From Pseudomonadota bacterium (GTDB lineage Bacteria > Pseudomonadota > Gammaproteobacteria > JAKAQQ01), in NCBI GenBank assembly GCA_021798115.1, contig JAJZYM010000003.1, forward strand, positions 1 to 64,000: DNA of 64,000 nt, in the 5' to 3' direction. Positions 1-54,871 of the stretch are shown here, piece after piece (within the stretch, counting starts at the first letter, position 1; every line of letters begins with the position of its first letter). The position numbers and the translations under genes were made by a program. A model generated the notes under the pieces. It did no database searches, had not been told where the DNA came from, and saw only the letters and a list, made by a program, of their open reading frames with translations.

Positions 1-2
1 CT

Positions 3-119
3 CTGGGGTCGACGTCCGGGGGGACGTCGGGAGGAGGCTCGGTGGGGGTGGGGATGCTTCTCGGGCTTCTGGTCCTGGTGGGGTTCAGGAGGCGGAAGCT
101 GGGAGGGAGGTGCGGCTAG
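3..119 (+). CDS. C-terminal end of a GlyGly-CTERM surface/secreted protein (5' partial)
   Basis: Only the last 38 codons are in the window; the gene enters from the left edge and ends at TAG. What can be seen is a whole C-terminal sorting signal: a Gly/Ser/Thr-rich run (SGGTSGGGS), about 16 hydrophobic residues (around MLLGLLVLVGF), then RRRK and a short tail. This three-part layout is the GlyGly-CTERM signal, known to be processed by the intramembrane protease rhombosortase in bacteria with type II secretion. A rhombosortase gene and gsp genes lie at 44.6-51.3 kb. The frame was chosen because it alone gives this tail. The body of the protein is outside the window, so no function can be named. 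Confidence 0.6.
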   Translation: MGSTSGGTSGGGSVGVGMLLGLLVLVGFRRRKLGGRCG

Positions 120-497
120 ACGGAGGGGCGTGTGACGCGTTCCCTGCTTTTGTGCCAGAGCCCTCGGACATGAACGGGCCTGGTTCGAAGCGGGGGATGC
201 ACCCTTGAAGCCGTGGCGGGATGTTCGGGCGAGTGTCGCGGATGGTTTCGTGTCGGCGTTGGGCTTGCGCCCGTCGCGTTGGAGGGAAAGCGCCCGGAAA
301 TCCAGGCGGGATCGGTGTCCGGTCCCTGTGGCATGATTGCCCGGGAGACGGTCCTGGTCTAGAATTGTTGAGCTCGGTTCGACACAAGAACTCTATTCAT
401 CTCATGCCCTTGAGGGCTCGTGTCGAGAATGGCTTCTTGCGAGAACTGGAATGGTTCCCTTAAGTCGCTCGTCCCATCCTGCCTGGAGTCTTTGTTT
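120..497. other. Intergenic stretch, no supported gene
   Basis: This 378-base gap lies between the GlyGly-CTERM tail and the Yip1-family gene. The short open frames in it are rich in Arg, Cys and Trp, have no recognisable domain and do not look coded. The only signal I see is a TAGAAT hexamer at 360-365 that could promote the next gene. A GGTTCGAA at about 181-188 resembles a tRNA T-arm, but no flanking stem forms. I see no clear terminator for the upstream gene. Confidence 0.5.
360..365 (+). promoter_or_regulatory. Putative -10 hexamer (TAGAAT) for the Yip1-family gene
   Basis: TAGAAT preceded by TC. The same GCTAGAAT/GCTACAAT type of hexamer stands before several genes in this window (18.5, 22.0, 38.4, 53.2 and 57.7 kb). 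No good -35 is visible, and the implied leader is long (about 125 nt) if the GTG at 498 is the start. Confidence 0.35.
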
Positions 498-5443: not shown

Positions 5444-6338
5444 TCTCCCGGTAACGCTGGGCGAGCGCGTCCAGGAGGGGAGCGGGGAGCGGCGGCGGGG
5501 GGGGGCGCTTGTCCCAGCCGGTGCTCTCGAGATAGTCGCGCACCGGCTGTTTGTCGTAGGACGGTGGGGTTGTCCCGGGCACGAGGAGGGCGGCGTCCCA
5601 GTAGCGCGAGGAATCGGGGGTCAGGATCTCGTCGATGAGGACGATCTCGCCCCGTTCGTCCAATCCGAATTCGAACTTGGTGTCGGCGAGCACGATGCCG
5701 CGTGCGGCGGCGTGTCGGGCCGCGTGCGCAAAGAGACGGAGCGAGAGCGCACGGATCCGTGCGGCCGCTTCCGGCCCGCCGGCGAGCTCGGTGTATTCGC
5801 GCTCGTCCACCGCCCGGTCGTGTTCCCCCGCCGGGGCCTTCCAGGACGGTGTGAAGAGAGGCTCGGAGAACGCCTCGCCGAGGGTGAGCCCAGGCGGAAG
5901 GCTTTGCCCCCCCACCCGACCCGTCCGCCGGTATTCCGCCCAGGCCGAGCCGGCCAGACGGGCGCGGACCACCGCCTCGAGGGGAAGGGGGCGCAGGCTT
6001 CGGACGACGAGGCTCCGGGTGAGGAGCCACGTGGGAGCGTCCTTGCCAAGGATGGTTTCGGGCGGGGTGTCGAGAAGATGGTTGGCCGCAAGCGGACGGG
6101 TGTTCACGAACCAGAAGCGGGAGAGCCTCGTGAGCACGCGGCCCTTGCCGGGAACGGGTTCGGGGAAGACCACATCGAAGGCGGAGAGACGGTCGCTTGC
6201 GACCATGAGGAGCGTTCCGCGATCGATGCGGTAGAGATGGCGGACTTTGCCCCGAGCGACGGGTTCAAGCCGCTCGAGGGCCGGCCAGGCCGGGGGCGAG
6301 AGCCGGGCGTCGTCCCCCGCGGGGGGGGACGACTTCAC
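5400..6338 (-). CDS. purC: Phosphoribosylaminoimidazole-succinocarboxamide synthase
   Basis: A 312-residue SAICAR synthetase that condenses CAIR with aspartate in purine biosynthesis. Recognised by GKVRHLY near the N-terminus, ASDRLSAFDV, the LAGSAW segment and the C-terminal LADTKFEFG followed by DEILTPDSSRY. The length is that of the longer (about 300-residue) subtype. Its ATG overlaps the stop of the upstream propeller gene (ATGA), so it is probably co-transcribed with it, although the two have no obvious functional link. The 3' end overlaps the convergent BtuF-like gene by 44 bases. Confidence 0.95.
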   Translation of the reverse strand: MKSSPPAGDDARLSPPAWPALERLEPVARGKVRHLYRIDRGTLLMVASDRLSAFDVVFPEPVPGKGRVLTRLSRFWFVNTRPLAANHLLDTPPETILGKDAPTWLLTRSLVVRSLRPLPLEAVVRARLAGSAWAEYRRTGRVGGQSLPPGLTLGEAFSEPLFTPSWKAPAGEHDRAVDEREYTELAGGPEAAARIRALSLRLFAHAARHAAARGIVLADTKFEFGLDERGEIVLIDEILTPDSSRYWDAALLVPGTTPPSYDKQPVRDYLESTGWDKRPPPPPLPAPLLDALAQRYREITLRLTSPPPPHGG

Positions 6339-8308
6339 CGCCGAGCGCGCCGGCGCCGGCGGGCGGCGAGGAGAGCCCCGGCGGCGAGGAGGAGGAGGGC
6401 CGGAAGGCCGAGGCCGCCGCTCGATCCGGTCGAGAGCGCTTCGAAAGCGAGCACATCGCTCGTCGAGAGTCCGTTGCCGTCCGTCACCGTGATCGTGATC
6501 TGGGCGCTCCCAATGGCGTTCTTGACCGGCGTCACGGTGAGGGTGCGGCTCGTCCCGCTTCCGCCGATCACGATGCCGCTCTGCGCCACCACGCTCGGGT
6601 TGTCACTCGAGGCGGTGACCGTGAGGGGGGGCGTGCCGTTGACGGTGAAGGTGAGGGGCCCGTAGATGCTGTTTTCGGAGGCTCCGATCGGGCTGATCAA
6701 GCCCGAGATCGTGGGTGGGTTGGCGACGCTGACGGCGACGGACACCGATCCCGTGGCCCCTTCGCTGGTCGTGCCCTCGAGGGTGACCGTCGCACTGCCC
6801 GTTTCGTTGGGGGCCGGGGTCAAAAGAATCTCGCGTTGGCTCCCCACCCCGGCGAATCCGAGGCTTCCGCTCGGGAAGAGGGTCGTGTTGTCGCTCGTCA
6901 CCTGGTAGGTGGTCCCGCAGGGGGCGTTCGTGCTGAAGGCGACCGTGCTCGGAGCGGTATTGACGCTGGCCGAAGAGGCGATGGTGATCGAGGCCGGGGC
7001 TGTGAGGGTGAGCGTCGTCGGTTCGGCACAGACGCGGACGACCCCGGGGAGCGAAACGGGATCCGTGGGCTCGCCCGGGCCGCTCGCGGCGGAGGCGAGG
7101 AACGTGAAGCGGTCGATTCCGATGTAGCCCGAGGCGGGGGTGTAGGAGAAATCGCCCGAAGAGGTGACGGACGCCGTCCCGTGGTTCGGCGCCTGGAGAA
7201 GGGAAAAACTCAGGCTCCGCCCGAGGCTGTCCTGGGCGGCGAGTGTTCCCGAGATCCCCGTGCCCTCCGTGGTTGCGAGGCTCTGGTTGGTGACGGTGAT
7301 GTCGCCTGCGCCCATGGGTTCGCCCGCGGCTTCGAGGGTGGTGGACGTCAGAACCTGGCTGCCCGAGGAGCTCAGGCTCGGGGCGGGGAGCACGGCCAGC
7401 GAGCCATCGGTCGGGAGAAGGGTGTCGAGATCAGTCCCGTCGGGGGTCAAGGCGAGGAGGCTCGGTTCCGCCGGCAGCGCGGCGGTGGCCGTTTCCGTTC
7501 CGCTGGCGGCGTCGTAGGCGGCCACGAGGTCGCTGTACCCGGAGGCGATGTAGACCGTCGAGCCGTCGGGGCTGACGGCCAGCCCCTCGGGGTACTTGGG
7601 TGCCGTCCACTGCGTCAGAAGAGCCCCCGTGTCGGTGTCGAGAACGGCGATCTGGTTCGTGGTGGGCTCGGAAACATAGAGGCGGGACCCCGAGGGATCG
7701 AGGGCGAGATCGAGCGGGACGTCGTTTCCAAGACTGATGAGACCGAAGCCGCCCGTCGTCGGATCGTAGATCCCGACCGCCGTGGCGTTCGGGAGGGCGA
7801 AGTACAGCGTGTGACCGTTGGGCGAGAGGGCGAGATCGGTGGCCGTGCCGTAGCCGCCGAGGTTGATCGTCTGGCTGATCGTCGCGCTCCCGGGATCCAC
7901 CTCGTAGATCGTGGTTCCGGCCGTGGAGACGAAGAGTGTCGTTCCCGTCGGGTTCACCACCATGGATTCGACCGCGTTGTTGAGTTTGGTCGTGATGAGA
8001 GGAATCGGGGTTCCGAGCGATCCGTTCGCGGGGTCGTAGGCGACGACCTCGAGTGTGGTCTCTGAGGAACTCGTGACGGTGAATCCGACGTAGACCGTGC
8101 CGGCGGCGCTTGCCACCGCCACGGCGGTGGGGGGGCCGGGCAAGGAGACGCTCCCCGCGAGCGCGCCGGTGGCGGCGTCGACGATGAGGAGCGACGAGCC
8201 CGACGTGTCGGGCAGGTAGAGATCGGGTTGTGCGTGTGCCGTCGCCCCGAGAGCGAGAAGCGCGAGCGCGGCGAGGGACGAGCAGACGAGGGAGCGGGAC
8301 CAGGTCAT
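6335..8308 (-). CDS. Secreted YVTN-type beta-propeller protein with GlyGly-CTERM tail
   Basis: A predicted exported protein of 657 residues. A Sec signal peptide (MTWSRSLVCSSLAALALLAL, cleaved near AHA-QP) is followed by about seven YVTN/NHL-like blades (repeats such as VAVASAAGTVYVGF, LALSPNGHTLYFA, LAVSPDGSTVYIA) up to about residue 330, then a cadherin/Ig-like region, and a C-terminal signal with SSGG, a hydrophobic stretch (LPALLLLAAGALLAA) and an RRRRRARR tail. That tail is a GlyGly-CTERM signal for rhombosortase. The upstream extension of the frame is rejected because the signal peptide starts at this ATG. The ligand or surface role is unknown. Confidence 0.8.
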   Translation of the reverse strand: MTWSRSLVCSSLAALALLALGATAHAQPDLYLPDTSGSSLLIVDAATGALAGSVSLPGPPTAVAVASAAGTVYVGFTVTSSSETTLEVVAYDPANGSLGTPIPLITTKLNNAVESMVVNPTGTTLFVSTAGTTIYEVDPGSATISQTINLGGYGTATDLALSPNGHTLYFALPNATAVGIYDPTTGGFGLISLGNDVPLDLALDPSGSRLYVSEPTTNQIAVLDTDTGALLTQWTAPKYPEGLAVSPDGSTVYIASGYSDLVAAYDAASGTETATAALPAEPSLLALTPDGTDLDTLLPTDGSLAVLPAPSLSSSGSQVLTSTTLEAAGEPMGAGDITVTNQSLATTEGTGISGTLAAQDSLGRSLSFSLLQAPNHGTASVTSSGDFSYTPASGYIGIDRFTFLASAASGPGEPTDPVSLPGVVRVCAEPTTLTLTAPASITIASSASVNTAPSTVAFSTNAPCGTTYQVTSDNTTLFPSGSLGFAGVGSQREILLTPAPNETGSATVTLEGTTSEGATGSVSVAVSVANPPTISGLISPIGASENSIYGPLTFTVNGTPPLTVTASSDNPSVVAQSGIVIGGSGTSRTLTVTPVKNAIGSAQITITVTDGNGLSTSDVLAFEALSTGSSGGLGLPALLLLAAGALLAARRRRRARR

Positions 8309-43345: not shown

Positions 43346-43349
<4 letters not shown>
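42429..43349 (-). CDS. rluC: 23S rRNA pseudouridine synthase RluC family
   Basis: A 306-residue pseudouridine synthase with an N-terminal S4 domain (about 20-75: RIDNLLMKLDRARPRSEIYRLLRTGQ) and a catalytic domain with APAHRLDRETSGCLLLGK containing the active Asp. The motif GRMHQIRRHTAEQGHPVLGD is also typical. The length and S4 domain suit RluC, which modifies positions 955, 2504 and 2580 in E. coli; RluD is the other candidate. The GTG start overlaps the stop of the nucleotide-sugar dehydrogenase (GTGA), placing it last in the gsp operon. Confidence 0.9.
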
Positions 43350-44623
<1,274 letters not shown>

Positions 44624-44624
44624 C

Positions 44625-45434
44625 TCAGGGAATGCCCGCAGCGGTGAGGGGGAGGACGCCCGAACTCACGAAGTCGTGCACGCCCGAGCGGGGGTTCCCG
44701 GGAAGCGTGTTGATGAAGCCCGCGAGGGCTGCGGGTGCGCCGGGAAGGGCCTTGAGCGCTGCCGTGAGGCGGTAGGTGCCGCGCTCGTGGAGCAGGAGGT
44801 GGGCGTCGATGCTCAGGGTGCGCGGACGGAGGCTTTGGATGTGGATCATGCTGCTCGTCCGGCCTCCGTCTCGCGTGGCCACGAAGACGAGCGTCCCGAG
44901 AGGGAGGGCCGGGGGCCCGCCGAAGCGGGCGTGAACAAGTCGGGCGTTTCCGACGATCGGTCCGAGATGTCCGGGCCCGAGATCGAGATCGAGACGGCGG
45001 AAGACGATCTCCCCGTGCGGGGTGCCGAAGAGAGCGATCGTGGGGACGAACGCCCGAAGGGTGGCGAGGCGAAGGCGGCCGCGGAGTCCACGCACCCGGA
45101 GAGGGTTCGCCAGAACGACGCTCAGCGCGAGCCGCGTGCTCCGGCTCCGCCAGGAAAGCCGCACCCGAGGGGTGAGGCGGACGAGATCGCCGATTCCGCT
45201 GAGACCACGGGCCACGCTCCAGCGAAGCCGTCCGCTGATGCGACCGAGAAGGCGGCACCGCTGGGCGTGTCCCGACCAGACGGTCCCGCGGATGCCGCGG
45301 CAGACAAGGGTGCCCGGCGGAGGCGAGACGAGCGCGTAGGCGAAGCGGGCGGGGAAGGTCGCGATCGCGGCCGCGAGGAACGCCAGGGCGAAGACGATCC
45401 CGAGAAGAAGAGAACGGCGGATCGGGAGACGCAC
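44625..45434 (-). CDS. gspN: Type II secretion protein GspN
   Basis: A 269-residue bitopic inner membrane protein with an N-terminal helix (about 9-31) and a periplasmic beta-rich domain. The opening of the mature part (ALVSPPPGTLVCRGIRGTVWSGHA) matches the GspN pattern, in which the first strand contacts an amphipathic ...GTVWSG segment. The last secretion gene of the operon, five bases after gspM. GspN is an optional T2SS component and is present in a subset of Gammaproteobacteria. GTG start. Confidence 0.85.
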   Translation of the reverse strand: MRLPIRRSLLLGIVFALAFLAAAIATFPARFAYALVSPPPGTLVCRGIRGTVWSGHAQRCRLLGRISGRLRWSVARGLSGIGDLVRLTPRVRLSWRSRSTRLALSVVLANPLRVRGLRGRLRLATLRAFVPTIALFGTPHGEIVFRRLDLDLGPGHLGPIVGNARLVHARFGGPPALPLGTLVFVATRDGGRTSSMIHIQSLRPRTLSIDAHLLLHERGTYRLTAALKALPGAPAALAGFINTLPGNPRSGVHDFVSSGVLPLTAAGIP

Positions 45435-45439
45435 GGCGA

Positions 45440-45940
45440 TCAGGAGCTGGGCTGGCGCCGCAAGGTCACGCTGGCCGAGACGAGTCCCGAGGCGTGCGGT
45501 TGGCGGCGGAGGGTGAGGGAGCGGACGCGGGCCCCGCTGGCGAGAGCGAAGGCGTGCAGCCAGCCGACGAGGTCCGGGAAGGCGATCGACGAGAAGACGA
45601 TCTTGACGGTTCCCGATCCTCCGGCCTCGATCTTGGTGGCGCTCAAGCCCCGGGCGGCGAGACTTTGCTGGGCGAGGAGCGTGAGCGGCTCGTCCGTCGT
45701 TGGGTGCACATCCTCACGGCGCAGAACCACGACGCGTTGCGCCACACCGTTCATCCACGCGAGCAGGTGGCGGTCGTGGGCGACGGCGCGGCGGTCCGTA
45801 CTCCGGGCGGAGAGGAGAGGCATCACGGCGAGGCGCGCGACGAGAAAGAGAGCGAGGACGATCCCGCCCACGGTGACCGCGAGACGTTCGCGCGGAGCGA
45901 GTGCCCGGTAGCGTCTCCGAAGCTCGTCGAGGAATTCCAT
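45440..45940 (-). CDS. gspM: Type II secretion protein GspM
   Basis: A 166-residue inner membrane assembly protein. A short cytoplasmic N-terminus with ELRRRYRALAPRERLAV, one helix (about 19-40) and a ferredoxin-like periplasmic domain (about 75-160). It pairs with GspL to anchor the secretion ATPase GspE. ATG 45940 gives a typical N-terminus; the ten further residues of open frame are unneeded. Starts one base after gspL ends. Confidence 0.85.
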   Translation of the reverse strand: MEFLDELRRRYRALAPRERLAVTVGGIVLALFLVARLAVMPLLSARSTDRRAVAHDRHLLAWMNGVAQRVVVLRREDVHPTTDEPLTLLAQQSLAARGLSATKIEAGGSGTVKIVFSSIAFPDLVGWLHAFALASGARVRSLTLRRQPHASGLVSASVTLRRQPSS

Positions 45941-45941
45941 C

Positions 45942-47138
45942 TCATCCCCCCTGGCTCTGGAGGATGACACGGGCGTGCGTCATGCCGCCCGCCGTTGTGA
46001 GCCCCGCGGTTTTGGCCCGGATCCCGGCCCTCTGATCGAGCGTGTGCAGGAAGCGGACGAGGTCCTGGCCGGAGGGGTCTTCCACCGTGAGCACCAGTCG
46101 TCCGCTGCGGTAGTCGGCGGTGTCGAAGCGCAGCCGCGAGGGCCGGGCGGCCGCGGCGTCCGCAAGGAGCCGGGCCCAATCCCCGGCCGCTGCCCGGCGC
46201 TCGAGGTGGCTCAGCCCACGGGACATCTGGACGCGGATGTCGACGATGTGACGGTCTTCGGGGAAGGTGCGGTGGAAGAGAGCGACGATGCGCCGCTCGA
46301 GAACGCTTCGCTCGTGACCGTAGTGGAGGACGTCAAGGCCGAGATGAATCCAGAGGACGAGAAGCCAGGCAGCGGCCAACACCACGCTCGTCCGCCACGT
46401 CCTCCACTGCTCCCCCGCGCGCGAGCGTTGGGCGGCAAATCCCGCGAGGAGATCGAGACGCGGCGGGCTCGTGTCGGCCTCGGCGAGCCAGTCCCCGGAA
46501 CGCGGCTCCCAGAGGTTGTCGGGGATCTCTTTCAGGCGGGGAACGCCGTAGGAGGCGACGGATTCGGGGAAACGCCCGTGTTCCCGCGCCTCGCTCCCAA
46601 GCCGCTCGAGGTAGAGCGGAAGGAGATCGGGATGGAACGCTCCGCCGAGCGCGTGCCCGTGACGGACGAGAATGCGCTCGGGTCCGTCCTGGGCGAGGGT
46701 CCAGCTTCCCGGCCGCCACGGGAGGAGGAGCGCGTCGGGCACGAGGGCCTCGACCGCAATCCCGCACTCCTCGAGAAGGGTGTGCCAGCGCGCGAGGTGC
46801 TCGCGATTCGCGACGGCCGCCGTGAGGCGCCCGTCGTCCTCTGCCCCCTCGGCGAGGTGAAAGGCCAGGGTCTCGACGTCCTCGAGGAGCTGCTCCTCGA
46901 GGACGTAGGGAAGAGCCTGAAGCCTCTGGCGCCGTCCGCGGACGGGAAGCGTCACGGGGAGAAGGGCCACGGTTTCGGAGGGAGCGGCGACGATGGCCCT
47001 GTGCGTTCCGAGACGGGCCGCCACATCCCGTAACGGCAGGGCTACGGGCGGCGAGGGGTTCGCGCCGCCGCTTCGCCAGAGGAGCACCGTCTCGTCGGCT
47101 GTCGCGGCGTTGCCGATTTTGAGGAAAGTGCGTTCCAC
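45942..47138 (-). CDS. gspL: Type II secretion protein GspL
   Basis: A 398-residue bitopic protein. The cytoplasmic actin-like domain (about 1-245, ending before TWRTSVVLAAAWLLV) normally binds the N-terminus of GspE. A single helix (about 255-272) leads to a periplasmic ferredoxin-like domain (about 290-398). ALPYVLEEQLLEDVETLAF is a conserved GspL stretch. GTG start, 31 bases after gspK. gspE itself is not in the window. Confidence 0.9.
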   Translation of the reverse strand: MERTFLKIGNAATADETVLLWRSGGANPSPPVALPLRDVAARLGTHRAIVAAPSETVALLPVTLPVRGRRQRLQALPYVLEEQLLEDVETLAFHLAEGAEDDGRLTAAVANREHLARWHTLLEECGIAVEALVPDALLLPWRPGSWTLAQDGPERILVRHGHALGGAFHPDLLPLYLERLGSEAREHGRFPESVASYGVPRLKEIPDNLWEPRSGDWLAEADTSPPRLDLLAGFAAQRSRAGEQWRTWRTSVVLAAAWLLVLWIHLGLDVLHYGHERSVLERRIVALFHRTFPEDRHIVDIRVQMSRGLSHLERRAAAGDWARLLADAAAARPSRLRFDTADYRSGRLVLTVEDPSGQDLVRFLHTLDQRAGIRAKTAGLTTAGGMTHARVILQSQGG

Positions 47139-47169
47139 AGCCCCTCCGCCCCCCGAGGATTTCCGGATT

Positions 47170-48087
47170 TCAGTCGCTCACGAAACGCCGCGAGAGAACC
47201 CGTGTCCACCCCTCGGGCGAGCGGTAGAGGAGGGAGCGAAGGCGCACGTGAGCACCCGCAAAGTGTACCCGCAAGTCAAGGCGGAAGTAGTTGCTGGTGA
47301 CGCCGAGCGGGACCGTGGTCTGGACGCCAAGCAGGCTCGCGAAAAGGGACGTCGAATTGAATCCCCCTTTCCGTTGGGCGAGCTCGATGTTTCCCAGATT
47401 CGTCTCCGGGATGTTGGGGGCGAGGGCGGCGAGGACAGGGCCGGGGGCGGTGTTGACGTTGAGGGGCACGCCGCTCGGAAGGGCCGAGACGTACGGGCGG
47501 AGCTCGAGATAGGCGGCCCGCGTGACACCGGCGACGAGGAGGAGCTCGCTCACGCTGGTCATGGGTTCCTGGGCCGCGCGGTAGGGTGGGTCGCGTGATT
47601 CGTAGAGTGAGGCCTGGGCGTCGCTGGCCGGTCCGGGCGAGGCCATCCAGTCGGCGACGTTGGTGGCGAGGTCCGCCGGAAGACCGAGTTCGGAGAGAAG
47701 CCGCATGAAGACCACGACCTCCGTCGGGTCGATCGCCCCCTCGGGCGTGATGAGGTTGTTGAGGTTGAACCGCCCTTCGAGGTCGACGACGCGTCCGGCG
47801 ATGCGTCCGTGCGGGAGCGGGAGCGGCGGGAGTCCTTCGGCCCACGCCTGGGTGAGGGTCACCGGTCCCTGGGCCGGCATGGCCTCGAGGAGCTTGCGGA
47901 CGAAGGTCGTGCCCGAAATCGCGTAGAGGACGGCTTGCTGGGAGCTGAGGAGATGGCGCGTGGCCTCGTAGGCGACGGCCCGTCGCCACTCCATGCGTGC
48001 CGCGACCGAAGCGGCGATGGCCACCACGACGAGCGCGAGGATGAGGGCGACGCCCCGCGGATCGCGACGGCGGGCCGGCGGACTCAC
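47170..48087 (-). CDS. gspK: Type II secretion minor pseudopilin GspK
   Basis: A 305-residue atypical minor pseudopilin that caps the pseudopilus tip. The prepilin-like N-terminus RRRDPRGVALILALVVVAIAA has the processing Gly but lacks the usual FTLIE, as normal for GspK. The large alpha-helical domain includes LEGRFNLNNLI, MTSVSELLLVAGV and LNVNTAPGPVLAALAP (hairpin and calcium regions of known GspK). GTG start overlapping gspJ by four bases. Confidence 0.92.
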   Translation of the reverse strand: MSPPARRRDPRGVALILALVVVAIAASVAARMEWRRAVAYEATRHLLSSQQAVLYAISGTTFVRKLLEAMPAQGPVTLTQAWAEGLPPLPLPHGRIAGRVVDLEGRFNLNNLITPEGAIDPTEVVVFMRLLSELGLPADLATNVADWMASPGPASDAQASLYESRDPPYRAAQEPMTSVSELLLVAGVTRAAYLELRPYVSALPSGVPLNVNTAPGPVLAALAPNIPETNLGNIELAQRKGGFNSTSLFASLLGVQTTVPLGVTSNYFRLDLRVHFAGAHVRLRSLLYRSPEGWTRVLSRRFVSD

Positions 48088-48722
48088 GGGAGATCCACGA
48101 TGAGGCGCAAGCGTCCCATCCCGCGGACGCGGAAACTCAGGCGGACGGCGCGCGGTCGGCGGTTCAGGAAGAGGAGGGGGTTCGCGGCGAGCGGTGGCCA
48201 GTTGTGGTGCCAGTGGCCGTCGACATCGAGCAGCCGCACGTGGAAATCGCGAACGTGGCGGAGAAGAGTCGTCGTGTGCGGCCTCATCGGTCGGGCCCGG
48301 TCCAGGACCGGCCAGCGGTACAGGAGGAGGCGGTGGTCACGCACCCCGAGACCCAGACGTGTGAGCCCGGATTGATCGCGGTAAAAGATCGCCTGGCCCG
48401 TCGCGGTGGTGAAGACGAGCCGCGGGCGTGAGCCGACCGTGGCGCGGAAGGCGGGGCGCAGCACGCCCTGGGCGTTACGGATCGGGCGCGCGCTCGCCTC
48501 GGAGAGGAGACGGGAGAGCTCGACGAGCGTGAGGGAGACACGACCGACGCTCTTTTCGACGCCGTGCGTTCGTTTCGCCTGGTGAAGAATCGTTCCGAGA
48601 ATGCCGTAGGCCATGACGGCGAGGATTGCGAGAACGGCGGTCGCGACCAGGATCTCGATGAGCGTGAAGCCCGAACGGCGGGACGCATGCCGCGGGCGGA
48701 GCGGGGCAGACGGCGGTCTCAC
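48084..48722 (-). CDS. gspJ: Type II secretion minor pseudopilin GspJ
   Basis: A 212-residue minor pseudopilin with prepilin peptidase site RRSGFTLIEILVATAVLAIL at about 16-35 and a C-terminal beta-rich domain ending RVRGMGRLRLIVDLP. GspI, J and K form the tip complex of the pseudopilus. GTG start, four-base overlaps with gspI and gspK. Confidence 0.92.
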   Translation of the reverse strand: MRPPSAPLRPRHASRRSGFTLIEILVATAVLAILAVMAYGILGTILHQAKRTHGVEKSVGRVSLTLVELSRLLSEASARPIRNAQGVLRPAFRATVGSRPRLVFTTATGQAIFYRDQSGLTRLGLGVRDHRLLLYRWPVLDRARPMRPHTTTLLRHVRDFHVRLLDVDGHWHHNWPPLAANPLLFLNRRPRAVRLSFRVRGMGRLRLIVDLP

Positions 48723-49276
48723 GGCGGCGGGAAGGGCGCCCCCGGCGGGCCGCCGCCCGGCGCGCCCGGCCCAAGGACCGGCATGGGCAGACCCACGGGA
48801 AGCGTGCCCGGCGTGCCCGGTGCGCCCGGTGTCGGGAGGGCTCCCTGAGGTGCGTTTTCGGCCTCGATTGCAGCCGCCGAAGGGGGGGCGTAGAGTGCAA
48901 TCAGGGTGGCGAGCGTGTCGTGCGGACTCTGGGCGGGTGCGACCTCGACACGGATCTTGTAGAGCCCGGGCAGAACGCTCGTGCGTGCGTGCATGCGCCA
49001 GCGCCAGCGTTGCGGGCCCATTGTGGTGCTGCCGCTCGTCCAGCCGAGCACCGGTGGCTTGGGCGAGAGGCGGGCCTCCTCGATGCGGTTCCAGGCCACC
49101 CAGTCGGCGAGCGTGCGTGCGCGGAGCTCCCCGGCGACGCGGACGCTCTCGCTTGCAACGCCGAGGAGCGCGAGGAGCGCGATGGCGACGACCGCAAGCG
49201 CGATGAGGACCTCGATCAGGGTGAATCCCCGGCGACGGTCTCCCCCGCGGCCGGGTCGAACGGCCGTCTCAAGCAC
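48719..49276 (-). CDS. gspI: Type II secretion minor pseudopilin GspI with Pro/Gly-rich tail
   Basis: A 185-residue minor pseudopilin. Prepilin site RRRGFTLIEVLIALAVVAIA near residues 12-31, then ADWVAWNRIEEARL and the WRMHARTSVLPGLYKIRVEV core, which are typical. After about residue 130 it has an extra 40-residue Pro/Gly-rich collagen-like tail (GAPGTPGTLPVG, GPGAPGGGPPGAPFPPP) that standard GspI (about 120-130 residues) lacks. GTG 49276 overlaps gspH by eight bases; the longer frame upstream is gspH shadow. Confidence 0.88.
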   Translation of the reverse strand: MLETAVRPGRGGDRRRGFTLIEVLIALAVVAIALLALLGVASESVRVAGELRARTLADWVAWNRIEEARLSPKPPVLGWTSGSTTMGPQRWRWRMHARTSVLPGLYKIRVEVAPAQSPHDTLATLIALYAPPSAAAIEAENAPQGALPTPGAPGTPGTLPVGLPMPVLGPGAPGGGPPGAPFPPP

Positions 49277-49895
49277 CTTGATGTTGGGCCAGAAGATGCG
49301 GGGGAAGGAGTTCGACGCGTCCGTTCGGTTTGCCCTCGAGCCCGTAGGCGTGCTTGAGTGAGCGTCCTCGGACGCGGATGACGATCGTGAAACCCGGCAG
49401 GATCGCGCGCGTGTCGAGAAGCACGATCTGGGGGCTGTGCCGCGCGGCCTGGGCGGAAGCCCGCTTGCGCCGGTGGCTGTGGTCTCGCCCGTTGCGGTCG
49501 AGCGCGCGGATCCCTTCCGGGGGGCGCGCGGCGTGCCGCAGCCGCGCGAGATCGACACGCGTGCCGAGCAGACGCAGGCGCAGACGGAGATCGTGGGAAA
49601 GCCGACGGGCGCGATAAACCGATCGTTGGGGGAAGCGTTCCCAGACGCCGTCGTGACGCTGGTAGAAGACATAGCCGTCCCGGCTCACACGCAGCCCGTA
49701 GCGGTTTCCGGTCAGCACCGCCTGCTGGGAGGCGAGTTCGATCAGGCCCGCGAGACGGCGGGCGGCCTGCTCGCTTCGCGGTGCCCGCCCGATTGCGCTC
49801 AGCGAAACGACGGCAATCGCGGTCAGGATCCCGATCACGAGGAGCACGACGAGGATCTCGACCAGGGTGAACCCCCGTGGCGGGGACGGCCTCAC
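49269..49895 (-). CDS. gspH: Type II secretion minor pseudopilin GspH
   Basis: A 208-residue minor pseudopilin with prepilin site PPRGFTLVEILVVLLVIGIL at the N-terminus and a globular domain with SEQAARRLAGLIELASQQAVLTGNRYGLRV and YVFYQRHDGVWERF, matching GspH. It joins the shaft to the tip complex. GTG start overlaps the gspG stop by four bases. There is a His/Arg/Ala-rich insertion (about 135-165) of unknown meaning. Confidence 0.9.
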   Translation of the reverse strand: MRPSPPRGFTLVEILVVLLVIGILTAIAVVSLSAIGRAPRSEQAARRLAGLIELASQQAVLTGNRYGLRVSRDGYVFYQRHDGVWERFPQRSVYRARRLSHDLRLRLRLLGTRVDLARLRHAARPPEGIRALDRNGRDHSHRRKRASAQAARHSPQIVLLDTRAILPGFTIVIRVRGRSLKHAYGLEGKPNGRVELLPPHLLAQHQGA

Positions 49896-50347
49896 GACCC
49901 GCCGCCTCCGTGGGCGTCGAGGGTCCAGTTGCCGATCACGTGATGGTGGCCGGGGGGGCCGTTGGTCCAGACGTTGAACGAGAGACCCCCGTGGATTCCG
50001 GGATGGATGTATTTGTAGGGGTGGCCCCAAGGATCGATCGGCAGGTGATTGAGATAACGGTGCCAGTGATGGGGGATCGGCGGAACATCGGGTTTGCGGA
50101 CGAGAGCCTCGAGTCCCTGATTCGTCGACGGGTAGCGGTAGTTGTCGAGTTTGTACATCTCGAGGGCGGCGTCGATGGAGCGGATGTCCGCTTCCGCCTT
50201 CGTGATGCGGGCCTCTTCCGGTTTGTTGATGACGTTCGGCACGATGATTGAGGCGAGGATGGCCAGGATGACGACAACGACCATCACCTCGATGAGGGTA
50301 AAGCCCCGCGATCGGGGCGGGCGAAGAAGCGAACGGGACCGGGTCAT
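49892..50347 (-). CDS. gspG: Type II secretion major pseudopilin GspG
   Basis: A 151-residue major pseudopilin that polymerises into the secretion piston. Prepilin site RSRGFTLIEVMVVVVILAIL (Gly/Phe cleavage), PNVINKPEEARITKAEADI, LEMYKLDNYRYPSTNQGLEAL and the calcium/tail region DPWGHPYKY are all canonical. First gene of the operon; GGAG lies five bases before the ATG. A Gly/His-rich end (HGGGGS) is longer than usual. Confidence 0.96.
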   Translation of the reverse strand: MTRSRSLLRPPRSRGFTLIEVMVVVVILAILASIIVPNVINKPEEARITKAEADIRSIDAALEMYKLDNYRYPSTNQGLEALVRKPDVPPIPHHWHRYLNHLPIDPWGHPYKYIHPGIHGGLSFNVWTNGPPGHHHVIGNWTLDAHGGGGS

Positions 50348-50569
50348 GGGTTCTCCGGGCGAAAGACTCTGGGTCGTGGAGCGTCGATCCGCGGGGCGGG
50401 GTGAGATTCGCTGCGGATAGGGGCTCACCTCGGCTAAGCTTACACCACACTCCGGGGCGGGGCAGAAGCTTGGCATCGCCTCAAATCTTGGACCGCCCGG
50501 CGTCCTCCGGGTTCGCCGGGCCGCCCGGGGGAGGGGTCGTGAGAGTTGTCCGTGACGTGGAGTTCTTCG

Positions 50570-51274
50570 ATGAATGACGAGACCGCAGGAGCGCCGCAAG
50601 CGCACCGCTGGCATGCGTTCGGCTGGTTTCCGCAGGGCGGGGGGAATATCCTTCAGAGGCTTTGGCAGGCCAATCCGTTCTGGCTGATCCCGCTGATCGC
50701 CCTGGCGATTCAGATCGCGGGTCCGCGGCTCTGGATGCAGCTGCGTTACGACCGTCTCGCCATCAGCGCCGGACAGTGGTGGAGAATCGTGACCGGCAAT
50801 TTCGTCCACGCCGGATGGGTTCACCTGGGGCTTGATTTCTCGGGGTATTTCCTCCTTTGGTATCTCTTCGCCCGCACCCTCGGCGGCCGACGCTGGTGGT
50901 GGGCGACCCTCTGGGGGAGCCTTGCCGTCGGCGGGGGGCTCTATCTTTTTAGCCCCGCCGTGCGCTGGTACGTGGGGATCTCGGGTGTGCTTCATACCTA
51001 CTGGGGTGCGGGGGCCCTTCTCGCAGTCGAGCGCCGCGAGTTCCTCGGCCGTTGGCTTCTCGCGTTTCTCATCCTGAACGTGGCCTACGAGGTCATCTGG
51101 GGGCCCTTGCCGACATCGGCCGCCATTCTCAAGACCCCGATCCTGACCGTCGCGCACCTTTACGGAACCATCGCCGGTCTTGTCCTGGGTGCGGTCTGGA
51201 TCGTGATCGACCGGCGGCGATCCCGCACGGCGGCGGCGCGGCGCACGGACGGTGGGGAGCCCGCTAATCTATAG
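50570..51274 (+). CDS. rrtA: Rhombosortase (rhomboid-type GlyGly-CTERM protease)
   Basis: A 234-residue, six-helix intramembrane serine protease of the rhomboid superfamily. Catalytic Ser lies in GISGVLHTYWGAG (GxSGxLH, about 136) and the His in AHLYGTIAGLVLG (about 200), with the HAGWVHLGLDFSGYFLL segment also typical. The GxSGxLH form marks rhombosortases, which cleave proteins with C-terminal GlyGly-CTERM tails. Two such tails occur in this window (3-119 and the end of 6335-8308). ATG 50570 has GGAG seven bases upstream. Divergent from gspG. The N-terminal 30 residues are longer than in the core family. Confidence 0.85.
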   Translation: MNDETAGAPQAHRWHAFGWFPQGGGNILQRLWQANPFWLIPLIALAIQIAGPRLWMQLRYDRLAISAGQWWRIVTGNFVHAGWVHLGLDFSGYFLLWYLFARTLGGRRWWWATLWGSLAVGGGLYLFSPAVRWYVGISGVLHTYWGAGALLAVERREFLGRWLLAFLILNVAYEVIWGPLPTSAAILKTPILTVAHLYGTIAGLVLGAVWIVIDRRRSRTAAARRTDGGEPANL

Positions 51275-51376: not shown

Positions 51377-52330
51377 ATGAACATGGCCATGGTTTTCCCC
51401 GGTCAGGGCTCGCAGAGCGCGGGCATGCTTGCCGATCTCGTGGACGAGCCGGTCGTCCGTTCGGTTTTCTCCCTCGTCTCGGACGTCCTGGGCGAGGATC
51501 TCCTCACGCTCCTCCGCTCGGGTTCGGACGCCGATCTTGGGCGCACGACGGTGACGCAGCCGCTCATGCTGGCCGCCGATGTGGCCCTCTACCGGCTGTG
51601 GCTCGAAGGCGGCGGTGAAAAGCCGGTGGCCCTTGCGGGTCACAGCCTCGGCGAATACGCAGCCCTGGTTGCCGCCGGGGTCTTCTCGCTCGCGGACGCC
51701 GCTCGTCTGGTTGCCCGCCGCGCCCGCCTCATGCAGTACGCGGTTCCCGAAGGTCGGGGGGCGATGGCCGCGGTCCTCGGCCTCGACGAGGGCCGCGTCG
51801 TGGATGTTTGCCAACGCCTCGCCGGTCCCGGCCGGGTCCTGGAAGCCGTCAATTTCAACGCCCCCGCGCAGGTGGTCGTGGCCGGAGACGCCGAGGCCGT
51901 GCGCGAGGCGGAAGCGCATTTTCGCGAGGCGGGGGCGAAGAAGGTTATCCTCCTGCCGGTCAGTGTGCCCGCCCACTCGAGCCTGATGGCGTCGGCCGCC
52001 CAGCGCTACCGGGTGGATCTGATCGCACAAGAGTGGATGCCGACGCGCATTCCCGTTGTGCACAACGTCGACGCCCGCGTCCACCCCGACGCGTTTGATT
52101 ACCCCGAGCTTCTCACCCGCCAGTTGGCGAGTCCGGTGCGCTGGACCGAGAGCGTTCGTCGTCTGGCGGACGACTTTGGCGTGGATGTGGTGCTCGAGTG
52201 TGGTCCCGGCAAGGTTCTCGCCGGGCTCGTGCGGCGGATTCTTCCCGAGACGCCCGTCTTCACGCTCGGAGAGGCGTCGGGTCGCGAAGCCGCTCGGGCC
52301 CATCTGAGCGGCCGGGGAGGACGTTCATGA
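51377..52330 (+). CDS. fabD: Malonyl-CoA:ACP transacylase
   Basis: A 317-residue acyltransferase that loads malonate on ACP. FPGQGSQ at the N-terminus, the nucleophile Ser in GHSLGEY (about 93), active His in VPAHSSLM (about 201) and Arg in RRARLM are present. First gene of the fab run; plsX, fabH and rpmF, usual upstream neighbours, are replaced here by the rhombosortase gene. The stop overlaps the fabG ATG by four bases. Confidence 0.97.
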   Translation: MNMAMVFPGQGSQSAGMLADLVDEPVVRSVFSLVSDVLGEDLLTLLRSGSDADLGRTTVTQPLMLAADVALYRLWLEGGGEKPVALAGHSLGEYAALVAAGVFSLADAARLVARRARLMQYAVPEGRGAMAAVLGLDEGRVVDVCQRLAGPGRVLEAVNFNAPAQVVVAGDAEAVREAEAHFREAGAKKVILLPVSVPAHSSLMASAAQRYRVDLIAQEWMPTRIPVVHNVDARVHPDAFDYPELLTRQLASPVRWTESVRRLADDFGVDVVLECGPGKVLAGLVRRILPETPVFTLGEASGREAARAHLSGRGGRS

Positions 52331-53070
52331 GCGACCCGCAGAGGCTGGCCTTGGTGACGGGGGCGTCGCGCGGTATCGGCGCCGCCGTGGCATCACGTCT
52401 CGCCCGCGCGGGAGCGCGGGTCGTGGGGACCGCCACCACGAGCGCGGGGGCCGAATCGATCAACGCACTCGCCGGGGCGCAGGGTCTCGCCCTCGAGGGG
52501 CAGGTTCTCGACGTCCGCGACGCCGAAGCCGTGGATCGCCTCTGTGCGGCGATCGAGGACCGCTACGGAGCCGTCGGGATTCTCGTGAACAACGCCGCCA
52601 TCACCCGCGACGGGCTCCTTCTGCGCATGGATCCGGACGACTGGGACGAGGTGCTCGAGACTGATCTCACGGGGGTTTACCGCTTGACGCGTCGCTGCCT
52701 GCGCGGGATGGTGCGCGCGCGCTGGGGCCGCATCATCACGCTCACCTCGGTCGTCGCGTTTTCCGGCAACCCCGGCCAGGCCAATTACGCGGCCGCCAAG
52801 GCCGGTCTGGTCGGCTTCACGCGCGCGCTCGCCCTCGAGGTCGGCTCGCGGCAGATCACCGTCAACGCCGTGGCGCCCGGGTTCATCGAGACCGACATGA
52901 CGCGCAGCCTCGACGAGCGCCAGCGCGAGGCTCTTTTGGGACGGGTGCCGCTCGGCCGCTTCGGGCGGGCAGAGGAAGTGGCGGCTCTCGTGGCGTATCT
53001 CGCCGGTGACGAGTCCGGATACGTGACCGCTCAGACCTTCCACATCAACGGGGGGATGTTCCCTTCCTGA
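52327..53070 (+). CDS. fabG: 3-oxoacyl-ACP reductase
   Basis: A 247-residue short-chain dehydrogenase. NADPH motif [12 protein letters not shown] (about 11), NNAAITRD, catalytic Ser in [13 protein letters not shown] and YxxxK in YAAAK (about 153-157), and the C-terminal HINGGMFPS are typical of FabG. ATG overlaps fabD; the longer frame upstream is fabD shadow. Confidence 0.97.
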
Positions 53071-53212
53071 ATGGGACCGGAGCGTTCGGGGAACGCGATC
53101 CGGCGGGGAACGGAGGCGATGTGCGCCGAGCGGTCCGAAACGGTTCTTGTTGCCGGTACGCCACGTTTGGTGTGGGAGTTTCCCGCGTCCCTCTCGCCCC
53201 TGCGTCTTTGGC

Positions 53213-53218
53213 TACAAT
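53213..53218 (+). promoter_or_regulatory. acpP: Putative -10 (TACAAT) for acpP
   Basis: TTGGCTACAATAGG in the 208-base gap between fabG and acpP, 61 bases before the acpP ATG. The same GCTACAAT hexamer occurs before fpr and tyrS. acpP often has its own strong promoter. Confidence 0.5.
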
Positions 53219-53225
53219 AGGCGCC

Positions 53226-53247
53226 CGTGGCCCGGCTCGGGGCCACG
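53226..53247 (+). promoter_or_regulatory. acpP: Perfect hairpin at the 5' end of the acpP leader
   Basis: CGTGGCCC and GGGCCACG form an 8-bp perfect stem with a six-base loop, starting eight bases after the -10, so it would stand at the very 5' end of the acpP mRNA. Such 5' hairpins are known to protect transcripts from decay; that role is inferred here. Confidence 0.5.
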
Positions 53248-53278
53248 ACAATCCACCTATCGAGAGGACAGATCCCTC

Positions 53279-53527
53279 ATGAGCAACGCAGACATCGACA
53301 AGCGCGTCAAGAAAATCATCGCCGAACAGCTGGGCGTGAAGGAGGAACAGATCACCCCCCAGGCCTCGTTCGTTGACGATCTTGGGGCGGATTCCCTGGA
53401 CATCGTCGAACTGGTGATGGCTCTCGAAGAAGAGTTCGAGTGCGAGATCCCCGACGAGGAGGCCGAAAAGATCACCACGGTCAAACAGGCGATCGACTAC
53501 ATTGAGAGCCACGCGAAGAAAGAATGA
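53279..53527 (+). CDS. acpP: Acyl carrier protein
   Basis: An 82-residue acidic four-helix protein. The phosphopantetheine Ser is in [12 protein letters not shown] (about residue 37); [14 protein letters not shown] and [16 protein letters not shown] are near-invariant ACP segments. ATG follows a GAGAGGA sequence about nine bases upstream. Ends in HAKKE, a few residues longer than E. coli ACP. Confidence 0.98.
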
Positions 53528-53626
53528 AGGCGGGGAGCACGACCTCCACCCGACCGTGAGCCAATCTCGGGAAACCACGACACTGCGCGATCGTCCGCGC
53601 CGGTCTCCACACGGGGGGTCGGCGCG

Positions 53627-54871
53627 GTGAGTGATCGCCCTCGCGTGGTCGTGACCGGCCTCGGCGTGGTTTCGCCGGTCGGGTGCAGCGTCGAAGAGGC
53701 CTGGCGCAACACGGTCGAAGGACGGAGCGGGATCACACCCATCCGTCACTTTGACGCCACGAATTACCCGACGCGCATCGCCGGTACCGTCCAGGGATTC
53801 GACCCTGGTGATCTCCTGCCCGAACGCGAACGCCGGAGGATGGACCCCTTCATCCAGTACGGTGTGGTGGCCGGAACACAGGCCTACCGGGACGCAGGCT
53901 TCGAGGACGGGGCGCTCGGTGAACGGGGGGCGGTCATCGTGGGGTCCGGGATCGGCGGGATCGGTACGATCGAGAAAAACCGCGACCTTCTCGTCGCCCA
54001 CCAGGGCCCGAAGAAGATTTCTCCGTTCTTCATTCCCGGCTCGATCATTAACATGATCGCCGGCCATCTGTCGATCACGCATGGTCTTTACGGCGCCAAT
54101 CTCGGCGTCGTCACCGCGTGCACCACCGGAACCCATGCCCTGGGCCTCGGCTACTGGGCGATTCAGCGCGGCGAGGCTGATGTCGTGCTGGCCGGCGGGG
54201 CGGAAATGGGCGCCAGCGAACTTGGGCTCGCGGGTTTCTGTGCCGCCCGTGCGCTTTCGACACGCAACGACGAGCCGACCCGCGCCAGCCGTCCCTGGGA
54301 CCGTGACCGCGACGGTTTCGTTCTGGCCGACGGGGCGGCGGTCCTCGTCCTCGAGGGCCTCGAGCACGCGCGGCGGCGCGGTGCCCGCATCTACGCTGAG
54401 CTCATCGGCTTTGGCATGAGCGCCGACGCCCACCATATCACCGCTCCCCCCGAGGACGGGGACGGTGCGCGGCGCTGCATGCTGCGCGCTCTCGCCGACG
54501 CCGGCCTGCCCCCCGAGCGGGTCGATTACATCAACGCCCACGGAACGTCAACCCCTCTTGGCGATCGGGCCGAAACCGTGGCCATCAAGAGAGCGTTCGG
54601 CGACCACGTCCGCCGTCTGGCCGTGAGTTCGACGAAATCCGTCACGGGCCACATGCTCGGGGCCGCCGGTGCGATCGAGGCCGTCTTCAGCGTTCTGGCC
54701 CTCCGTGATCAAGTCATTCCGCCGACCATCAATCTCGACGAGCCCGATCCGGACTGCGATCTCGATTACGTCCCGAAGACGGCCCGGTCCCAGAATCTCG
54801 AGATCGTGCTCTCGAATTCCTTCGGCTTTGGGGGGACCAACGGGACCTTGGTCTTCCGTCGCTACCGTTGA
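53627..54871 (+). CDS. fabF: 3-oxoacyl-ACP synthase II
   Basis: A 414-residue thiolase-fold condensing enzyme. Catalytic Cys in TACTTGTHALG (about 165), His in NAHGTSTPLGD (about 305) and GHMLGAAGAIEA (about 342), Lys in SSTKSVTGH. GTG start, 99 bases after acpP. The stop overlaps the TTG of mltG (TTGA). Confidence 0.97.
   Translation: MSDRPRVVVTGLGVVSPVGCSVEEAWRNTVEGRSGITPIRHFDATNYPTRIAGTVQGFDPGDLLPERERRRMDPFIQYGVVAGTQAYRDAGFEDGALGERGAVIVGSGIGGIGTIEKNRDLLVAHQGPKKISPFFIPGSIINMIAGHLSITHGLYGANLGVVTACTTGTHALGLGYWAIQRGEADVVLAGGAEMGASELGLAGFCAARALSTRNDEPTRASRPWDRDRDGFVLADGAAVLVLEGLEHARRRGARIYAELIGFGMSADAHHITAPPEDGDGARRCMLRALADAGLPPERVDYINAHGTSTPLGDRAETVAIKRAFGDHVRRLAVSSTKSVTGHMLGAAGAIEAVFSVLALRDQVIPPTINLDEPDPDCDLDYVPKTARSQNLEIVLSNSFGFGGTNGTLVFRRYR

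Follow-up and report, generated by a model that had tools for sequence, protein, structure and literature searches.

A rhombosortase gene divergent from gspG in a gammaproteobacterial genome: a recurrent gene order in support of a proposed joint pathway of tail cleavage and surface display by the T2SS

Results

Gene content of the rhombosortase locus

The window, i.e., the whole stretch of 64,000 nucleotides analyzed in this work, is the opening 64 kb of the 125,678-base contig C34. It belongs to a draft genome of 1.88 Mb, 97% complete and divided into 38 contigs, whose closest named relatives are uncultured Proteobacteria or Gammaproteobacteria MAGs. A rhombosortase gene lies there between T2SS genes and fab genes, and two further genes end in candidate tails. 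The features are given with coordinates, strand and assignment; profile scores are followed by their cutoffs.

3..119, +, tail 1: 38-codon 3′ end of a tail-bearing gene truncated at the contig edge, tail at 30-95; TIGR03501 21.3 vs 15.5
6335..8308, -, tail 2: 657-aa beta-propeller/Ig-domain protein, tail at ~6335-6433; Pfam Big_9 and propeller matches, lineage-type tail
44625..45434, -, gspN; PF01203 62.7 vs 29.6
45440..45970, -, gspM; PF04612 96.3 vs 27.8
45942..47138, -, gspL; TIGR01709 207.1 vs 65
47170..48087, -, gspK; NF037980 250.8 vs 130
48084..48722, -, gspJ; TIGR01711 68.3 vs 64.85
48719..49240, -, gspI, start codon approximate; TIGR01707 74.1 vs 44.35
49269..49905, -, gspH, minor pseudopilin, start codon approximate; TIGR01708 79.8 vs 80 (marginal)
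49892..50347, -, gspG, major pseudopilin; TIGR01710 142 bits vs 88.85
50348..50569, no strand, divergent intergenic region between the gspG and rhombosortase starts, 222 bases, GC 0.68
50570..51274, +, rhombosortase, 234 aa, ATG start; TIGR03902 123.7 bits vs 84 (the frame scored opened at an upstream TTG, 50546, not at the ATG, 50570); PF01694 55.8
51377..54871, +, fabD, fabG, acpP and fabF; TIGR00128, PRK05653-type FabG, acyl carrier protein and TIGR03150, all above cutoff

Judged by its sequence, the product of 50570-51274 is a genuine rhombosortase, an enzyme of known kind for which cleavage of GlyGly-CTERM tails is predicted. It passes the TIGR03902 equivalog cutoff, and the co-occurrence expected with GlyGly-CTERM is also found, with four tails above the TIGR03501 cutoff in the genome. 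S138 (in GISGVLH) and H196 (in AHLYG) form the catalytic pair and are invariant across 17 relatives. In a phylogenetic tree, 69 rhombosortases split from 13 ordinary rhomboids with an SH-aLRT of 83, and the window protein fell within the rhombosortase clade. Score, Ser/His pair and clade position thus uphold the assignment made in the initial annotation, and score and tree placement rule out an ordinary rhomboid, the outcome that the annotation itself had named as speaking against it. The rhombosortase is the sole rhomboid detected in the 97% complete genome; no GlpG-type rhomboid was found there.

Coordinates and the matches of gspG to gspN likewise bear out that the protease gene lies next to a T2SS operon and is read in the opposite direction, with 222 bases between its start and that of gspG (50347, -). 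All gsp genes in the window except gspH exceed a curated cutoff. For GspH, the N_methyl profile scores above its cutoff and the prepilin motif is present, with the GspH domain at 19.1 vs 21. The genes gspC, D, E and F make up an operon of their own outside the window, on contig C7, so that the genome holds the full set from gspC to gspN, divided between two contigs, with GspH as the marginal member.

It had been suggested that the shared intergenic region could coordinate protease and secretion genes, with shared promoter elements to be sought in 50348-50569. A consensus scan limited to the sigma-70 type gave no promoter-like sequence in this region on either strand, and the region is well conserved (197 of 222 bases) only inside the genus. 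The suggestion thus found no support. Immediately 3′ of the rhombosortase gene, fabD-fabG-acpP-fabF follow on the same strand, about 100 bases away, and beyond fabF lie genes for a YceG-family protein, thymidylate kinase and a DNA polymerase III delta-prime-type subunit.

Tails and candidate substrates

The initial annotation had counted two GlyGly-CTERM genes in the window. A scan of the 64 kb for tripartite C-termini returned these two tails and no others; tail 1, a 38-codon fragment, matches the curated model TIGR03501, whereas tail 2 has no match to it even at E ≤ 10. Failure of both tails in this model had been named as an argument against the claim, and half of that outcome occurred.

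The first 129 bases of the window, which contain tail 1, match the end of a gene on contig C1 with 99.2% identity and belong to a multi-copy gene with related copies on contig C8 and in the sister species. Near-identical GlyGly tails of this Ig-repeat protein family lie at contig ends (window 1-129; C1, piece L056, 1329-1457; C8, piece L057, ~7087-7941). The repeated family probably breaks the assembly and thereby hides substrates. A second repeated tail family with near-identical SGSGAMG(P/L)WALVLL tails was also seen at contig ends, on C23 (L250) and at the start of C5 (L251).

Tail 2 is tripartite, with a small-residue motif, a hydrophobic stretch and a basic end (SSGGLGLPALLLLAAGALLAARRRRRARR). 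Its best named matches are MYXO-CTERM (TIGR03901, 19.9 vs 20) and an LPXTG anchor (18.1). We rejected both readings of the tails: the MYXO-CTERM scores are near the cutoff, but the motif has no Cys and the genome has a single, marginal CPBP match; an LPXTG anchor would come without a sortase motif and is implausible in a Gram-negative organism. The tail could nevertheless be a permanent membrane anchor or the target of another enzyme rather than a rhombosortase substrate, which would agree with the missing TIGR03501 match, with MYXO-CTERM as the top named match and with the specificity of the Vibrio cholerae enzyme. In V. cholerae (PMC11389362), alanine is fully tolerated at P1, whereas processing is poor with serine at P2 or P1 and with leucine at P1′; leucine directly after GG cut the activity of VesB to 11%. 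However, tail 2 aligns with the tails of its lineage, some of which pass TIGR03501. Its orthologs in sister genera retain the tripartite form, with NSSA(V/I/L)DPT or similar replacing GG, and related propeller proteins carry SSSALGP or SSGALGP tails, the latter passing TIGR03501. We hence regard an anchor or foreign target as rather unlikely. Although it fails the curated model, tail 2 looks like a lineage variant of the GlyGly-CTERM signal. The propeller orthologs from two sister-genus genomes (G003, L173; G007, L174) are each reported with one TGA within the matched stretch.

A lineage tail model was built from 20 lineage tails, tail 2 among them. It recovered the training tails of this genome and two new ones, on a 905-aa pro-kumamolisin (S53-type) protease and on a protein of 796 aa that matches subtilase weakly. 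The 905-aa protein, encoded on C5 (piece L260, 1530-4247), combines a pro-kumamolisin activation domain, Ig repeats and an SGSGALGLP tail; it is likely a surface-displayed protease overlooked by TIGR03501. In total, about nine candidate substrates are found on six contigs, four of which are called by TIGR03501, and the lineage tails suggest that the curated model overlooks putative substrates. As serine at P2/P1 and leucine at P1′ are poor in V. cholerae, the drifted tails may require a matching shift in rhombosortase preference.

Genomic scatter of the pathway genes

Protease, machinery and substrates within 51 kb had been presented as a compact example. This claim is weak: gspCDEF reside on C7, and most of the candidate substrates lie elsewhere. 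The roughly nine candidates are scattered, most of them off the contig of the window, and two tails in 64 kb therefore mean little; for 4-8 scattered tails, the probability of finding one or more in a given 64 kb is 13-24%. With substrates scattered and half of the T2SS elsewhere, it is mostly by chance that protease, machine and substrates lie close together. We also dropped the idea of a dedicated substrate gene paired with the rhombosortase, since a heuristic scan found few tail-bearing genes nearby (1 of 25 gsp-adjacent loci and 3 of 44 others).

Recurrence of the rhombosortase-gspG pairing

What did turn out stronger and more significant than the initial annotation had claimed is the linkage of rhombosortase and gspG, because it recurs in 20 family-level groups. 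Of 184 genomes sampled evenly across Gammaproteobacteria, 70 have rhombosortase. We examined the neighbors of 69 rhombosortase loci, counting a rhombosortase as divergent-adjacent when it was divergent from gspG within 1.5 kb. This arrangement was found at 25 of the 69 loci. Genome-wide, gspG was present in 67 of 70 genomes with rhombosortase and in 59 of 114 without (p=3e-11, shared ancestry ignored), and tails occurred in 34 of 70 vs 5 of 114 (p=1e-12, shared ancestry ignored). Likewise, gspG was adjacent and divergent in 35 of the 80 nearest named rhombosortase loci, with rhombosortase identities to that of the window down to 33%.

Among the 25 divergent-adjacent loci, gspF, E and D lie directly across the rhombosortase in five and about 2.4 kb off in a sixth, so that the rhombosortase occupies the gspF/gspG junction of a canonical cluster in antisense orientation. 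One genome has it at this junction in the same direction. The window arrangement would be a remnant of this gspF/rhombosortase/gspG junction after the gspC-F half moved off.

Mapped onto the rhombosortase tree, which is weakly resolved, the adjacency is scattered and needs 17 changes against a shuffled mean of 21.7. Scatter combined with identical position and orientation favors one old arrangement with many losses, although the junction could also have formed repeatedly. The order might also be a neutral relic devoid of function, left by a single ancient insertion at the gspF/gspG junction that was passed on and gradually lost; position and orientation are alike everywhere, as expected for a single origin, the order is scattered over the tree, and most lineages have lost it. 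Against this, the order persists among rhombosortases that are just 33-40% identical to that of the window and in all 20 family-level groups, a long time for neutrality, and rhombosortase and gspG strongly co-occur genome-wide. We therefore doubt that the order is a neutral relic. The linkage is not required, as 44 of 69 loci are not in divergent order beside gspG.

The order of the fab genes after the rhombosortase is also conserved; it is kept in every family relative carrying rhombosortase and in some other families. The rhombosortase might thus functionally belong to a fabD-fabG-acpP-fabF operon, with expression that tracks lipid synthesis and an incidental adjacency to gspG. In agreement with this, fab genes directly follow the rhombosortase in the family of the window and in several others, and both neighbors, gspG and fab, are found at 29 of the 80 nearest loci. 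In the even sample, however, only 9 of the 69 loci have a fab neighbor, against the 25 with gspG; 17 loci have gspG without fab and just one has fab without gspG. We consider membership in a fab operon improbable.

Discussion

The pairing with gspG recurs in about a third of the sampled gammaproteobacteria that have a rhombosortase, and protease and T2SS hence look like parts of one surface-display pathway. We think it likely that the genome encodes a typical rhombosortase/GlyGly-CTERM pathway, and that the protease gene has long resided among the clustered T2SS genes. Substrates would be exported by Sec, upon which the tail would insert into the inner membrane. The rhombosortase would then cut the tail at the small-residue motif and probably join a glycerophosphoethanolamine-containing lipid to the new C-terminus, and the T2SS, encoded by gspG-N in the window and gspC-F on C7, would carry the folded protein to the cell surface. 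In this scheme, cleavage, lipid attachment and T2SS passage are carried over by analogy from V. cholerae (PMC6219818, PMC11389362). For this species, Gadwal et al. (2018, PMC6219818) and later reports (PMC11389362, PMC13393428) show that the tails are cleaved, that a lipid is likely attached and that display on the surface depends on the T2SS. Seen in the genomes were the protease with its catalytic residues, the gspC-to-gspN set, tail-bearing proteins and the recurrent protease-T2SS order, which supports a shared pathway of tail cleavage and T2SS surface display. Against it stand the drift of the lineage tails from the curated motif and a tail that is a fragment. The gene order may persist because protease and secretion machine act on the same cargo.

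We may further speculate that the gammaproteobacterial T2SS cluster ancestrally included the rhombosortase as an accessory gene, located at the gspF/gspG junction, and that the enzyme acts in concert with the machine, e.g., by passing processed, lipid-tagged cargo straight to it. Most lineages would later have separated the two, and the enzyme of the window lineage would serve a drifted signal with S/S/A in place of G/G. This extended scenario is tentative, and we hold it to be possible rather than probable.

Co-occurrence of T2SS genes with GlyGly-CTERM was described in the founding paper (Haft and Varghese 2011, PMC3237569). The same paper noted that rhombosortase neighbors its target mainly in one-target genomes, and its authors found no indication of a T2SS subclass marked by rhombosortase. 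The recurrent gspF/rhombosortase/gspG order appears to be undescribed. We found no mention of a rhombosortase beside gspG in the searched passages of PMC3237569, PMC6219818, PMC11389362 and PMC13393428 or in the further open-licence literature searched; a report elsewhere is possible. Recurrence of the junction in many families provides direct genomic evidence of a coupling between GlyGly-CTERM processing and T2SS export. It also flags those T2SS loci that are likeliest to display surface proteins, and organisms in which this coupling could be tested.

With V. cholerae RssP and its GlyGly-CTERM substrates (TIGR03902/TIGR03501), the system shares the protease family, the Ser/His pair, the tripartite tails, many substrates for one enzyme and a T2SS in the same genome. 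It differs in the location of the gene beside gspG in a split T2SS cluster, in that no GlpG was found, in lineage tails that often have S/S/A for G/G, and in candidate substrates that include propeller/Ig proteins and an S53-type protease. Myxosortase and MYXO-CTERM (PMC11980579) are alike in in-membrane tail cleavage followed by T2SS-dependent surface location, proposed here for the window lineage; in contrast, that system relies on a protease of the CPBP family and an invariant tail Cys, which is missing here.

Compared with a canonical gspC-N cluster, gene content from C to N is the same, as is the order within the halves, with C-D-E-F on C7 and G-N in the window. In contrast to the canonical case, the cluster is split in two, with the rhombosortase at the would-be gspF/gspG junction. 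On C7, gspF is followed by a same-strand gene resembling glucan 1,4-alpha-glucosidase (piece L248, 1654-3981), and in the window a gene for a nucleotide-sugar dehydrogenase of the TviB/NDP-sugDHase type (43346-44623, -) lies directly after gspN, also on the same strand.
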